Below are positions 49,602 through 55,387 of a DNA stretch of 64,000 nt, one piece after another. Source of the stretch: Pelagibacteraceae bacterium AG-470-G21 (GTDB taxonomy: Bacteria; Pseudomonadota; Alphaproteobacteria; Pelagibacterales; Pelagibacteraceae). The stretch is from the NCBI GenBank assembly GCA_003211555.1, contig QCSH01000006.1, positions 1 to 64,000 on the forward strand. Direction: 5' to 3'. Under the pieces are notes generated by a model. The model was not told the DNA's origin. It saw only the letters and a list, made by a program, of their open reading frames with translations, and made no database searches. Position 1 is the first letter of the stretch, and every line of letters begins with the position of its first letter. A program made the position numbers and the translations under genes.

Positions 49602-49997
49602 ATGAAGCTAACAATACCTTATTACTTACATAAAGCAGGAGCAGGTTTTCCGTCACCTGCAACCGACTATATAGAAGAAGACATAGATTTAAACGTACAT
49701 CTAATCAAGAATGTTCCAGCAACTTTCATCATAAGAGTTCAGGGGAAATCAATGGTGGATGTTGGAATAAATGATGGGGATTTATTAGTTGTAGATAAAA
49801 GCTTAACTCCAAAAAATTTTTCAACTGTTATAGCAAATGTTCATGATGAACTTGTTGTAAAAACTCTAGTTAGAGAAAAAGATAAACAATTTTTAACATC
49901 TGGCTCTAAAGAATTTTCTGATCGAATTTTAATAAATGAAGAACAAGATATTTTCATTTGGGGAGTAGTTACCTATGTCATACATTCAGTACACTAG
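49602..49997 (+). CDS. umuD: UmuD-like S24 self-cleaving protein
   Basis: 131-residue partner of UmuC. The catalytic serine is in [16 protein letters not shown] and the lysine in [11 protein letters not shown]. The [10 protein letters not shown] segment aligns with the residues right after the E. coli cleavage point, which here would be Ala-Gly (KAG-AGF) near residue 16. The N-terminal arm removed by RecA-stimulated cleavage is thus several residues shorter than in E. coli. Controlled by the LexA box at 49583 and overlapping umuC by 23 bases. Confidence 0.9.
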
Positions 49998-51252
49998 AAA
50001 ATTAGCATTAATTGATTGTAATTCTTTCTATGTTTCTTGTGAAAGATTATTTAATCCAAAAATAAGGAAAAAGCCTGTTGTAGTTTTATCTAATAATGAT
50101 GGTTGTATAGTTTCACGGTCCACTGAAGCAAAGGCTTTGGGAATTAAAATGGGCGAGCCCTACTTTAAAGCAAAAGATATTATTATCAAAAATGATGTAC
50201 AAGTATTTTCATCAAATTATTCTTTGTATGGGGATTTATCCAGAAGAGTAATGAGGACTTTAAAAAGATTTAATTCTGATATTGAAGTTTACTCAATTGA
50301 TGAAGCATTTATGGATTTGTCAAATTTTTCTGACAATGAAGTAGAGAAAGTTGGAAGGGAAATTAGAGAAACAGTTTTAAAGTGGACTGGTATTCCAACA
50401 AGTATAGGAATAGCTAAAACTAAAACTTTAAGTAAAATTGCAAATCATATAGCTAAGAAAAAACAATCGGGTGTTACAAGTCTAATTGGAATAGAAAATC
50501 TTGATCCTATTTTAGAGAAAATAGATATCAACGATGTTTGGGGTGTTGGGAGACAGATGACAAAGTTTTATCAAAAAAATGGAATTTATAACGCTAAACA
50601 ATTAAAAAATAAATCCAATACCTGGATTAAAAAATCCTCAAATGTTCTAAGTTCAAGAACTGCAATGGAACTTAGAGGTGTGCCTTGTATCGATCTAGAA
50701 AAAACTGCATCAAAAAGAAAAAGCTGTGTAGTATCAAGATCATTTGGAAAAAGAATAGAGAGATTTCAAGAACTGGAAGAAGCTGTTGCTAGTTATTGTT
50801 TAAACGCATCAGAAAAAATAAGATCTGAAAATCTTGTTGCAAAAGCCGTTATGGTATTTGTTAGAACCAGTCCATTTCAAAAACAATTTGGTTTTTATTC
50901 AAACTCTAGAACTGTTGATTTTCCTATAGCAACTAACAATAGTATAGAGATAGTAAAAAATGCCTTATCTGTCTTAAAAGTAATTTTTAGAAAAGGACAT
51001 CGTTATCAAAAAGCAGGAGTTATGCTAACCGGGTTAACAGACGCTGAGAATAACGAAAACCTATTTTCATCTGCAAAAGATGAGAAAATTAATAGATTAA
51101 TGAGATCAATTGATAATACAAATTATAGATATGGCAGATCCACACTAAGTCTTGCAAGTGCTGGTGTTAGAAGATCATGGAGCATGAAAAGAGATTATAA
51201 CTCAAAAATAGATACAGCTGATTTTTATTGTTTACCAACGATTAGAGCTTAA
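49975..51252 (+). CDS. umuC: DNA polymerase V catalytic subunit
   Basis: 425-residue Y-family polymerase for translesion synthesis. Catalytic acidic motifs are [16 protein letters not shown] and [28 protein letters not shown] and VWGVGRQM (helix-hairpin-helix) follow. The start overlaps umuD by 23 bases, implying coupled translation. With umuD it forms the SOS mutagenesis operon. Confidence 0.94.
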
Positions 51253-51259
51253 TAAGCAA

Positions 51260-52741
51260 CTATCTCATCGAAAAAGGATCAAGAGTTGGCTCGTCAGATG
51301 TATAGTACCAAGTAGTTTTTACCCTAGTGTAATCTTTAATAGACTCTAAACCGGCCTCTTTTCCGTATCCACTGTCTTTTATTCCACCAAATGGTGCTGA
51401 TGGAGAAATTAAACGATAAGTATTAACAAAAGTAATACCTGCTCTAATAGCTTTTGAAACTCTTAGTCCTTTTGCAAAATCACTTGTGTAAACTCCAGAT
51501 GATAATCCATATTGATTATCATTCATCTTAGAAATTACTTCTTCCTCTGTATCAAACTTCATTACAGAAAGAACGGGTCCAAACAATTCATTTTCAGCTG
51601 CTGGTAAATTATGGTTATCGCATTCAATAATAGTTGGTGGAAAATAAAATCCTTCATTAGAAAATGGATGTCTTTTACCCCCACATCTAACTTTTCCACC
51701 TTGCTCGGCTGTTAGTTTGATATTTTTTTCTATGACCTCTAATTGTTTAAAATTACTTAATGGTCCCATTTCTGTTTCAGGATCCATGGGAGCACCAATT
51801 TTTATTTTTTCAGCCCTTGAAATTAACTTATCTAAAAATTCATTGTAAATATTTTTTTGAAGGTATAATCTTGAACCTGCTATACAACTTTGACCACTTG
51901 CTCCAAATATTCCTGCTGTAATACCATTAATTGCATTCTCTTGTTTTGCATCATCAAAAACAGCTACTGGACTTTTTCCACCTAGTTCCAAGCTGACTTC
52001 TGATAAATTTTCGGCAGAGTTTCGAATTATATGTCGTGCAGTTTCGGGGCCACCTGTGAAGGCAACTTTTTCAACCAAGTTATGCGTTGTTAATGCTTTC
52101 CCACATGGATCACCAAATCCTGTGATAACATTTACTACACCTTTTGGTATTCCTGTCTCTTCTATTAGTTTTGCAAATTCAAACATTACAGCAGGTGCTA
52201 ACTCAGAAGATTTTATTACAACTGTATTTCCCATTGCCAGAGCAGGAGCTAGCTTCGTTGCTGTTAAAAACATTTGAGAATTCCATGGTACTATTGCTGC
52301 AATTACACCTATTGGTATTCGGGTTGTAATAGCTTGGATATTCGGTTTATCTATAGGTAATACAGTGCCTTCAACTTTATCAGCCAACCCAGCGTAATAA
52401 TCATAATACTCAGCAATATATATTGCTTGTTTATTTGTTTCTCTAAAAAGCTTCCCAGTATCTATTGTTTCAATTTTTCCAAGAAGTTCTGCATTTTCTC
52501 TTAACTTGTTTCCGATTGCTCTTAAAAATTTTGCCCTGTCTCTTGGTAACAACTTTGACCATTCTCCTTCAAATGCGTTATGAGCAGCTTTTACAGCCTT
52601 ATCTACATCACTGGCGCTAGCTTCAGGTACTCTTGCCCAAGGTTTATTGTTTTCTGGGTTTAATGTTTCAAATGTTTTATCAGTGTCAGAGTCTAACCAT
52701 TCTCCACCAATAAACATTTTATAATTTTTTAATTCAGTCAT
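51260..52741 (-). CDS. aldehyde dehydrogenase (TgnC-like context)
   Basis: 493-residue NAD(P)-dependent ALDH. Catalytic Glu is in SLELGGKSP and catalytic Cys in ASGQSCIAGSRL; the N-terminal FIGGEWLDS is typical. Last gene of a four-gene minus-strand cluster: LLM monooxygenase, DUF1185 protein, alpha/beta hydrolase, ALDH. In trigonelline degradation the ALDH TgnC oxidises a ring-opened hydroxybutyrolactone intermediate; this gene is a candidate for that step. Overlaps the hydrolase by eight bases. Confidence 0.88.
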   Translation of the reverse strand: MTELKNYKMFIGGEWLDSDTDKTFETLNPENNKPWARVPEASASDVDKAVKAAHNAFEGEWSKLLPRDRAKFLRAIGNKLRENAELLGKIETIDTGKLFRETNKQAIYIAEYYDYYAGLADKVEGTVLPIDKPNIQAITTRIPIGVIAAIVPWNSQMFLTATKLAPALAMGNTVVIKSSELAPAVMFEFAKLIEETGIPKGVVNVITGFGDPCGKALTTHNLVEKVAFTGGPETARHIIRNSAENLSEVSLELGGKSPVAVFDDAKQENAINGITAGIFGASGQSCIAGSRLYLQKNIYNEFLDKLISRAEKIKIGAPMDPETEMGPLSNFKQLEVIEKNIKLTAEQGGKVRCGGKRHPFSNEGFYFPPTIIECDNHNLPAAENELFGPVLSVMKFDTEEEVISKMNDNQYGLSSGVYTSDFAKGLRVSKAIRAGITFVNTYRLISPSAPFGGIKDSGYGKEAGLESIKDYTRVKTTWYYTSDEPTLDPFSMR

Positions 52742-53504
52742 TAATTAACTCTTTGATAGCTTTATTTACATCATACGAATACTCGATACCACAAAGATGT
52801 TTTCCTTTAGGAATAATTTTAACATATGAATTATTAATAACCTTACTTAAATTATTTGACATTTCAGGAGTTGAGCCATCGTCATTTTCTCCAGTAATTA
52901 CAAGTGTTTTTATATTAATTTTTTCAAAAACTTCTTCATCTTTATGTGTTACGAATAATTCATAAACTTTAAGAAAATTTTCCACATCGTTTTCATCTAA
53001 AATTTTTATTATTTTATTTTTCTCAGATTTATGGTTTTCTAAAAAATCATCTGATAACCATCTTTTAAGAGATGAATGTGGTATTTTTTTTTCCTTTTTC
53101 ATATTTTCAAATCTATCATTAACTAATTTTTGTTGCTCGTTACTTCTATTAAAAATTGATCCAAATAATGTTAAACTTTTAAGTTTGTCAGAATACTTCG
53201 TTGCAAAATTTCTTGCAATTAAAGATCCAATAGAAAAACCAACTAGATGAATTTTATCTATCTCTAAATGATTTAATAAATTTATTAATTGGTTGGTAAA
53301 ATCATCAAATGAAATAGTATTTAAATTTAAAGGTGTTTTTCCGTGTCCAAGAATATCGTAAACGAGTACTGTATTTTCAAATTCTCTTATTTGATTATCC
53401 CAAATAGAATGATTTAAACCAACGCCATGTATAAAAACAATTGGTACATCTTCCTTTTTGTTAATTAGATAAAAAGTACCGTTGGAATCAAAACCACTTT
53501 CCAT
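52734..53504 (-). CDS. alpha/beta hydrolase (TgnD-like context)
   Basis: 256 residues. Oxyanion region VFIHGVGLNHSIWD, nucleophile Ser in LVGFSIGSL, acid Asp in TGENDDGSTPEM and base His in PKGKHLCGIEY make a full catalytic set. In the trigonelline route TgnD hydrolyses an N-methylformamido succinate; the cluster position fits, but many hydrolases look alike. Confidence 0.85.
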   Translation of the reverse strand: MESGFDSNGTFYLINKKEDVPIVFIHGVGLNHSIWDNQIREFENTVLVYDILGHGKTPLNLNTISFDDFTNQLINLLNHLEIDKIHLVGFSIGSLIARNFATKYSDKLKSLTLFGSIFNRSNEQQKLVNDRFENMKKEKKIPHSSLKRWLSDDFLENHKSEKNKIIKILDENDVENFLKVYELFVTHKDEEVFEKINIKTLVITGENDDGSTPEMSNNLSKVINNSYVKIIPKGKHLCGIEYSYDVNKAIKELIND

Positions 53505-53507
53505 TTT

Positions 53508-54095
53508 TTATTTCGGTTCAATACCCATCTCTTTCATATCTTGATATCTATCACCTGTTCTTGCATGTGCTCTTCCAGATGAAGCACCTCCGATCGCAAT
53601 AACTATTTCATCATCAAATGGAGCATCATGAATAGTAAATTCATGTGTTAAGTAATAAGGTCTTAATCCTGCATCAGTTTTATGCATCATTGGTATTGAA
53701 ATTTTTGATCCTGCTGGTCCTCTTGTATTTGTAAAGCTTAAATAGGATGTACCACCTACCGCATCTCTAAATTTATTACCAAACCTTAAGGTATGTATAA
53801 AAGCGGATGCATGTTCTATTTCACCTTTTAGTCCTACAACACCTGCCTTGCCATAAGCTAAAATTTTTTCAGGCGCTCCTATTTCTTTTATCAATTCTGG
53901 AACTAATAAATCTCCCAGCTTAGGTGCTAAATCTAAAATTATAGGTTTCAAATCTTCAACGAAACCTTGTCCATCCCATGGATTTTTAATAATTGCTGCA
54001 ACTGAAACTAATAAAACTGGTTCTTTTGCTTTCTTACCCCCTTCAATAAATGATTTATCTACAAATTTTGCAAATTTTCTAAGTTCTAGTTCCAT
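53508..54095 (-). CDS. DUF1185 (amino acid synthesis family) protein
   Basis: 195 residues matching the AA_synth/DUF1185 family (PF06684): EPVLLVSVAAIIKNPW, LAYGKAGVVGLKGEIEHA and the C-terminal GRAHARTGDRYQDMKE are characteristic. Structures exist for the family but no enzyme activity is established. Its place, one base from the monooxygenase gene and three from the hydrolase, implies a step or helper role in the same catabolic pathway. Confidence 0.82.
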   Translation of the reverse strand: MELELRKFAKFVDKSFIEGGKKAKEPVLLVSVAAIIKNPWDGQGFVEDLKPIILDLAPKLGDLLVPELIKEIGAPEKILAYGKAGVVGLKGEIEHASAFIHTLRFGNKFRDAVGGTSYLSFTNTRGPAGSKISIPMMHKTDAGLRPYYLTHEFTIHDAPFDDEIVIAIGGASSGRAHARTGDRYQDMKEMGIEPK

Positions 54096-55261
54096 TAACT
54101 AGCTTTTTCTAAGTCTGAGGAATTTAAATTAATTTTTGGTATTACTTCATCATTAAATAACTTAATACTTCTCATGCAATCTTCATGTTTCATTCCAGGA
54201 AAGTTCGACCAAACTTGAAGGTTTTGTAAATTTAATTCAGATTTTAATTCATTTATTTTATTTACAACATATTCAGGTGTGCCAAATAATAAATTTCTTT
54301 TATGTAAAAAATTGTAGTCTAACAAATCTAGTTTATTTTTAGTTTCAGGCAGTTCTTCTCCTGGATCCATATGATTACCAAGACCTCTCCAGTGACAAAC
54401 CCATTTCATATAATTGATAATGTGCTCACCTGCTAATTTTTCGGCTTCTTGCATAGTTTCTGCAACAAACATGTCTCTGACTAGTGAAACACCTTCGCCA
54501 AGAGCAACATCTCTATTCTCAACTTCAGATTTTGCTTGTTGGTAAATTTCAAATCTTTTTTTTAGAGCTTTTACTGTTGGTATCCACATAATAGTATTTA
54601 ATCCGTTTCGAGCTGCCCATTCAATTGATCTGGCTCCATCCACAACTTGCCAAATCGGAGGATGAGGAGTTTGTTTAGGTTTGGGAACAACACTTAATTT
54701 TTTTATTTCGTTTGTTTCAATATCAACAAATTTTTTATTTGGCGGACTCATATCATGTTGCCAAACAAAATTAGGTGCTGGGTAAGTATAGAATTCACCT
54801 TTATGACTGAAAAATTCTTCGGTCCAAGCTTTTTTCATAATAGTTAAAGTTTCTTCAAATAATCTAAAATTTTTTGCTTGGTCTTTTAGATCTGCTTCTT
54901 TATTCATATTTAAAGCTTCTCTACCATATACACCTCTCCCTATTCCTACTTCTACTCTCCCATTTGAAAGTTGATCTAATAATGCAATATCTTCCGCCAG
55001 TCTGATTGGATTATGAAATGTTATCACATTACATGCTTGTCCAATCCTAATTTGTTTTGTTCTTGCGGCAGCATCAACTCCCATCATCAAAGGATTTGTG
55101 CAAGACTCCATTCCTTCATGATTAAAATGATGTTCAGTATACCAAATCGAATCCCAACTATTTTCATCACAATAATTTGTGATTTGTCTAGTTTCTTCTA
55201 ATAAAGTTTCGTATGGTTTATGTTTCCAATTAGTAGTGTTACAAAAGTATCCAAATTTCAT
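54095..55261 (-). CDS. LLM-class flavin-dependent monooxygenase (TgnB-like context)
   Basis: 388-residue luciferase-like TIM-barrel enzyme using reduced flavin and oxygen. WDSIWYTEHHFNHEG, RIGQACNVITFHNPIRLAED and DQLSNGRVEVGIGRGVYGRE are hallmark segments. First gene of the cluster. In Acinetobacter the related oxygenase TgnB opens the trigonelline ring. A separate flavin reductase, which such enzymes need, is not in the cluster. The 126 bases upstream (55262-55387) hold its promoter; nothing specific stands out there. Confidence 0.85.
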   Translation of the reverse strand: MKFGYFCNTTNWKHKPYETLLEETRQITNYCDENSWDSIWYTEHHFNHEGMESCTNPLMMGVDAAARTKQIRIGQACNVITFHNPIRLAEDIALLDQLSNGRVEVGIGRGVYGREALNMNKEADLKDQAKNFRLFEETLTIMKKAWTEEFFSHKGEFYTYPAPNFVWQHDMSPPNKKFVDIETNEIKKLSVVPKPKQTPHPPIWQVVDGARSIEWAARNGLNTIMWIPTVKALKKRFEIYQQAKSEVENRDVALGEGVSLVRDMFVAETMQEAEKLAGEHIINYMKWVCHWRGLGNHMDPGEELPETKNKLDLLDYNFLHKRNLLFGTPEYVVNKINELKSELNLQNLQVWSNFPGMKHEDCMRSIKLFNDEVIPKINLNSSDLEKAS

Positions 55262-55387
55262 AAAGCCTCCTTTAAAATTTACTTTTAAAGACGACCGATC
55301 CCACTTTCGTAAATTTTTATATTAACGACGAGTTATGTATCGCTTTATGAATAAATAATATTATTTTGGTGAAAATTTTCAATAGAA

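Follow-up and report, generated by a model that had tools for sequence, protein, structure and literature searches.

What do the four tightly packed genes at positions 51260-55261 of contig QCSH01000006.1 from Pelagibacteraceae bacterium AG-470-G21 break down, and do they amount to a trigonelline pathway? They lie in the 64,000-nucleotide stretch analysed here (the window), and the original prediction described them as a trigonelline-like cluster for the catabolism of N-heterocycles. We hold with moderate confidence that the genes form one catabolic operon, a divergent ring-cleavage module for N-methylated heterocycles of the type represented by the tgn cluster of Acinetobacter baylyi, which probably does not act on trigonelline and for which homarine is the leading candidate. 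Four intact open reading frames (ORFs) were found where they had been predicted. Read 5′ to 3′ on the minus strand, they encode in this order a luciferase-like (LLM) flavin monooxygenase, a DUF1185 protein, an alpha/beta hydrolase and an aldehyde dehydrogenase (ALDH):

54095-55261, minus strand: LLM-class flavin monooxygenase of 388 amino acids, putative ring-opening oxygenase (PF00296, 157.5 bits)
53508-54095, minus strand: DUF1185 (AA_synth) protein of 195 amino acids, counterpart of the DUF1185 protein of tgn clusters, TgnF in PMC7913881 (PF06684, 211.6 bits)
52734-53504, minus strand: alpha/beta hydrolase of 256 amino acids in the TgnD position, candidate N-formyl/enamide hydrolase (Abhydrolase_1, PF00561, 84.1 bits)
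51260-52741, minus strand: TgnC-type ALDH of 493 amino acids (Aldedh, PF00171, 528 bits)

All four proteins score far over the curated Pfam cut-offs (27 bits for PF06684, 27.9 bits for PF00296). The LLM and DUF1185 genes overlap by one base (TAATG), a 3-base gap separates DUF1185 from the hydrolase, and the hydrolase and ALDH genes overlap by 8 bases, which makes co-transcription of the four genes very likely. The same gene set recurs in the same order in relatives, and the ratios of nonsynonymous to synonymous substitution rates (dN/dS) are low, about 0.03-0.12 for LLM, DUF1185 and ALDH and 0.17-0.41 for the hydrolase, although dS is near saturation and the ratios are rough. Together, these results indicate that the association of the genes is not due to chance. 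The G+C content of the cluster is 32%, and that of the window 30%. The low G+C, genomes of roughly 1.1-1.5 Mb and the size of the order formed by such genomes, presumably within the Alphaproteobacteria, make SAR11 the probable group. The tight four-gene cluster of the original prediction was thus borne out by the ORFs, their Pfam families and the overlapping or near-abutting junctions, and the gene content around 51260-55261 agrees with its remark that no flavin reductase or transporter adjoins the cluster.

As a reference for comparison we used the tgn locus of A. baylyi DSM 14961, obtained from a scan of named genomes for TgnB-like proteins. This species reportedly carries the trigonelline catabolic cluster TgnA-F described by Perchat et al. 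in PNAS in 2018. The genes were named according to their protein family, their position and that work. The reference locus has the order GntR-like regulator, DUF1185, hydrolase (TgnD), flavin reductase (TgnA), LLM (TgnB), ALDH (TgnC), cytosine-permease-type transporter, porin-like protein, second ALDH (TgnE) and CMD-family gene. In the 68 loci of the same scan that span 14 kb or more, TgnB is accompanied by TgnD and TgnC in every case (68/68 each), by TgnA in 67 and by a TgnE-like protein (identity of at least 50%) in 23. Directly upstream of the Acinetobacter tgn clusters, heterotetrameric sarcosine-oxidase-like genes were seen (A. junii plasmid, L074:250-5404; A. baylyi, L082:1-3409), possibly encoding an N-methylamino-acid dehydrogenase for the released methylamine.

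The ALDH of the window is 52% identical to TgnC. In a tree that did not include the hydroxymuconic-semialdehyde-type ALDHs (the top sequence match in the PDB), a clade of 17 rows (support 100/99) unites the window with its relatives, with two further alphaproteobacterial modules and with the TgnC group, and excludes TgnE and E. coli BetB, GabD, PuuC, PatD and AldA. The grouping with TgnC was kept in a larger quick tree (support 99). Identity to TgnE is 31-32%, with no grouping, and the score against the NCBIfam betaine aldehyde dehydrogenase equivalog TIGR01804 is 471.5, under the cut-off of 668.6. The catalytic motifs GQSC and ELGGK are present. The DUF1185 protein is likewise close to its tgn counterpart, with 52% identity to that of A. 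baylyi.

Results for the oxygenase were different. The window LLM is 26% identical to TgnB of A. baylyi and falls in a clade of 18 rows with other luciferase-like proteins (99/99), apart from the clade of TgnB and rhizobial LLMs (99/98), and this separation was kept in a larger second tree. Its EHH motif is conserved, and its score lies under every NCBIfam subfamily cut-off shown. The structure model of the LLM was poor (predicted local distance difference test score, pLDDT, of 69) and was set aside. By identity and tree position the window LLM is not a TgnB orthologue. No TgnB orthologue was found among 292 genomes of the order, the best match reaching 28%, and the one match that was checked (genome G004) is a different LLM beside carnitine-type genes. 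In G004 (L030:12125-17189) and G005 (L031) we noted a second, unrelated pair of LLM and alpha/beta hydrolase next to genes of carnitine type (BKACE, 3-hydroxyacyl-CoA dehydrogenase, thioesterase, TauD). The homologue from the alphaproteobacterial genome G271 is 55% identical to the window LLM, and a search with it in a phylum-wide sample of 398 genomes gave no additional carrier at the strict cut-off. The hydrolase of the window has the triad Ser91/Asp208/His236, aligned with that of TgnD; the fold family and the triad are common to both, at an identity of 24% and in a distant clade.

The predicted match of the monooxygenase, hydrolase and ALDH to TgnB, TgnD and TgnC therefore holds for the enzyme set and for the ALDH, which lies in the TgnC clade, but not for the LLM; the hydrolase is at best a distant counterpart of TgnD. 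It had been proposed that the idea would fail if monooxygenase and ALDH grouped with unrelated families; in the trees the ALDH stays with TgnC, and the LLM does fall in another clade. 'Trigonelline-like' is a fair description, with two of the four parts resembling tgn, but 'trigonelline pathway' is not, because the ring-opening enzyme, on which the choice of substrate depends, is not TgnB. Trigonelline proper was rejected as the leading reading, given the missing TgnB orthologues and the separate clade of the LLM. As far as sequence comparison goes, the window operon holds a tgn-type module in variant form, its ring-opening oxygenase replaced by another.

In the proposed mechanism, the LLM would act on a betaine, an N-methylated pyridinium carboxylate, and open its ring with O2 and reduced flavin mononucleotide (FMN), the latter supplied by a reductase whose gene lies elsewhere. 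The product, an N-formyl-N-methyl enamide, would end in an aldehyde or lactol, and the TgnC-type ALDH would oxidise the aldehyde to a carboxylate. The hydrolase would remove the N-formyl group and/or split the enamine, giving formate and methylamine or a methylated amino acid, and DUF1185 would assist, perhaps by handling an imine/enamine or an aldehyde adduct. We infer the substrate, the order of the reactions and the role of DUF1185 alike. With an LLM other than TgnB, trigonelline is an unlikely substrate. In the published pathway TgnA and TgnB open the ring of trigonelline, and TgnAB is considered unlikely to act on homarine for steric reasons (Heal et al., PMC8269262), so that a homarine route would need a different LLM, such as the operon has. 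Homarine (N-methylpicolinate) is our best guess for the substrate.

For DUF1185, the AlphaFold model (pLDDT 88) matches the DUF1185 structures 3byq (Z 23.5) and 2qtp (Z 20.9). The fold is Bacillus chorismate mutase-like (PMC2954203), a class that also holds the Rid enamine deaminases. A RidA homology of DUF1185 was considered and not adopted: the match to the Rid protein PA0814 (Z 6.2) is tied with the unrelated PurM and OmpA-like domains, and the similarity is at the level of fold alone. A role in imine or enamine handling is only an idea. As DUF1185 stands alongside TgnB, TgnC and TgnD in all 68 full-length tgn loci, it belongs to the ring-cleavage core, and its context pre-dates this finding. 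The expectation that DUF1185 would gain a functional context here was not borne out, since the tgn loci already contain the protein throughout and PMC7913881 equates it with TgnF; this rests on the homology to TgnF stated there for HcdD, a protein of DUF1185 type. Only 23 of the 68 tgn loci have TgnE within 7 kb, against 68 for DUF1185. Judging by these counts, the published role of DUF1185 as a helper of TgnE may be incomplete, and the target for tests of DUF1185 changes, as the family tracks the core TgnB/C/D and not TgnE.

A PF01613 flavin reductase was found neither in this genome (84% complete) nor in the complete relative G012. Both encode an FMN_red protein (PF03358) elsewhere, which also occurs in relatives without the cluster and could serve as the supplier of FMNH2. 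In G271, which lies outside the order, a PF01613 flavin reductase stands directly before LLM-DUF1185-hydrolase-ALDH, supporting the LLM as part of a two-component oxygenase. A gene of 168-169 amino acids upstream of the second-family LLM (L037, L039) was considered as a flavin reductase and rejected; it has no Pfam match and its start resembles a signal peptide. No dedicated transporter was found among the genes at the window cluster or beside the clusters of relatives. The Peripla_BP_6 protein of Liv-type ABC genes beside some of these clusters was discarded as a cluster-specific transporter; it is also present in relatives without the cluster and, from this distribution, looks like a core gene.

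Of the 297 genomes sampled from the order, 100 encode the window-type LLM, as do 49 of the 150 of good quality. A thiamine-diphosphate enzyme of about 566 amino acids accompanies it in 57 of the 100 LLM-bearing genomes, and wherever a cluster was read gene by gene it sits between LLM and DUF1185:

L030:4821-6518 (G004): thiamine-diphosphate enzyme between LLM and DUF1185; also in L032, L033, L034 and L037-L039

This enzyme scores nearly equally against the sulfoacetaldehyde acetyltransferase and acetolactate synthase models, under both cut-offs. It is absent from the window form and from the near-complete genomes G012 and G718, and in G805 and G886 its gene contains five in-frame stops, which points to gene loss, with assembly error as an alternative. 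The window LLM belongs with the form lacking the thiamine-diphosphate enzyme (89% identity to G012, 75% to G004), and the window hydrolase (67% to G004, 48% to G012) and ALDH (92% to G004, 75% to G012) group with the form that has it. By these groupings the window operon is a mosaic, or recombinant, of the two forms. Hydrolase and LLM trees with 28 extra loci repeated the pattern, and an exchange of similar kind, separate from this one, is seen in G839 and G751. The hydrolase differs most between the two forms, DUF1185 remaining near 92%, a hint that the hydrolase is matched to the product. In some relatives the cluster lies beside betaine/carnitine genes (GMC, TauD, BKACE, 3HCDH). One region of the Parasedimentitalea marina plasmid pW43B (L169) joins DUF1185, a CoA transferase gene, hydrolase, RidA, ALDH and LLM, and also holds genes for carnitinyl-CoA dehydratase, 3-hydroxyacyl-CoA dehydrogenase and BKACE; its ALDH is 56% identical to that of the window.

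Several points weigh against a tgn-type ring-cleavage module. Recruitment to some other chemistry could account for the shared ALDH and DUF1185, and the LLM and hydrolase are far from TgnB and TgnD. LLMs related to that of the window occur without DUF1185 in Peribacillus, Sulfitobacter and genome G182, and no flavin reductase is linked to the window operon. The main fact that a tgn-like scheme does not explain is the thiamine-diphosphate enzyme of the sister form, which the scheme needs at no step. A wider claim would be that SAR11 holds a second, independently assembled pathway for cleaving N-methylated heterocycles, in which a TgnC-type ALDH and DUF1185 are combined with a different luciferase-like oxygenase and an optional thiamine-diphosphate step, and DUF1185 is a conserved catalytic partner (imine/enamine handling) and not a helper of succinate-semialdehyde dehydrogenase; this we consider rather unlikely.

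Among the alternatives to our reading, the one that survives best, a serious if tentative possibility, is that SAR11 has in this cluster its own form of the homarine pathway of 2026 (Ferrer-Gonzalez et al., Nat Microbiol 11:1531), which leads from homarine to N-methylglutamate and involves N-methylglutamate dehydrogenase (Mgd). This would be our own reading with its substrate specified. PMC13390433 cites that paper and the part played by Mgd in homarine catabolism. The succession of flavin reductase, LLM, DUF1185, hydrolase and ALDH in G271, with a LysR-like gene nearby, is consistent with this pathway, and opening of the homarine ring between C5 and C6, followed by oxidation and deformylation, would lead to a glutamate-like skeleton. 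Yet a thiamine-diphosphate enzyme is unexpected in such a route, and an imine reductase was not identified in the window cluster. The 2026 abstract is said to describe a six-gene operon, homABCDER, and to name SAR11 among the carriers. If the cluster does encode this pathway, the finding is already known.

We also considered a substrate other than a pyridine, either another quaternary amine or a compound converted to a 2-oxo acid, which the thiamine-diphosphate enzyme of the sister clusters would decarboxylate before oxidation of the aldehyde by the ALDH. The frequency of that enzyme and its position between LLM and DUF1185, the betaine/carnitine genes adjoining the cluster in several relatives and the union of DUF1185, hydrolase, RidA, ALDH and LLM with carnitine genes on the Parasedimentitalea plasmid all speak for this. 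However, the thiamine-diphosphate gene is dispensable, since G012 and G718 lack it and stops break it up in G805 and G886, and the ALDH groups with TgnC and not with betaine-aldehyde dehydrogenase; on balance we judge a non-pyridine substrate somewhat improbable.

Degradation of trigonelline itself, through a SAR11 tgn pathway with a non-orthologous oxygenase, is less probable still. A TgnC-type ALDH and the tgn DUF1185 are present, and trigonelline has been found in marine plankton samples (PMC8269262), but the LLM is not, and the hydrolase appears not to be, an orthologue of its tgn counterpart, and the operon has no TgnE-type dehydrogenase or tgn permease. In addition, the tgn loci of marine Rhodobacterales keep a TgnB that is 72-75% identical to that of Acinetobacter, so a different LLM suggests a different substrate. 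Very improbable, finally, is a loose set of general detoxification genes for aldehyde and ester clearance with no dedicated pathway: each of the four families is large, and the three enzymes all stay below the specific NCBIfam cut-offs, but order and spacing are fixed across genera, presence is patchy as is typical of an accessory catabolic operon, and the four genes co-occur in organisms with complete modules.

The surroundings of the operon comprise a family 2 glycosyltransferase gene on the LLM side and umuD/umuC-like genes on the ALDH side. The latter pair (49602-51252) is intact, by sequence encodes an S24 peptidase and a Y-family polymerase-like protein, and has its convergent end 7 bases from the ALDH gene. 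Upstream of the LLM lies a candidate promoter region:

55262-55387, no strand assigned: 126-base gap upstream of the LLM gene, weak consensus match

Here TTGAAA-16-TATTAT at 55382-55355 on the minus strand matches 10 of 12 consensus positions, but such sites in the upstream region show no excess over shuffled sequence.

SAR11-type bacteria are among the most abundant heterotrophs of the ocean, and trigonelline and homarine are widespread osmolytes of plankton. If the module does open N-methylpyridinium rings, it would be a large sink for these two compounds, because the oxygenase occurs in one third of the genomes sampled from the order, and a source of methylamine, formate or glutamate.

Compared with known systems, the window operon shares with tgn of A. 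baylyi the combination of LLM, alpha/beta hydrolase, TgnC-type ALDH and DUF1185 in one operon, the last two at 52% identity each and the ALDH in the same clade. It differs in its LLM (26%) and hydrolase (24%), both from other clades, in having no flavin reductase, TgnE, regulator or permease, and in gene order, which is DUF1185-hydrolase-reductase-LLM-ALDH in A. baylyi vs. LLM-DUF1185-hydrolase-ALDH in the window. Rhizobial and Agrobacterium clusters (L002, L004, L076) unite the families of flavin reductase, ALDH, LLM, hydrolase and DUF1185, with a DUF1185 that is 53-57% identical to that of the window; their LLM (24-26%), ALDH (40%) and hydrolase (27-28%) are more distant, a carboxymuconolactone-decarboxylase-like gene is attached and an amino-acid ABC transporter lies nearby. 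The Rut pyrimidine pathway of E. coli (RutA LLM, RutF reductase, RutD hydrolase, RutC) also opens an N-heterocycle with an LLM, followed by an alpha/beta hydrolase, but RutA (about 19%) and RutD (17%) are only distantly similar and the Rut operon contains no ALDH or DUF1185, so that the likeness is one of analogy only. The G271 module (L065) shares the gene order, with identities of 55% for LLM, 61% for DUF1185, 30% for hydrolase and 52% for ALDH, and differs in its adjacent PF01613 flavin reductase and in a Rieske-type oxygenase gene (L065:11777-12979) that precedes the reductase on the same strand, possibly encoding an N-demethylase or another entry step. With the homarine pathway of 2026 the window operon has in common the expected substrate class and, reportedly, an occurrence in SAR11. 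The module is of a known kind, and its homarine version may already be published.

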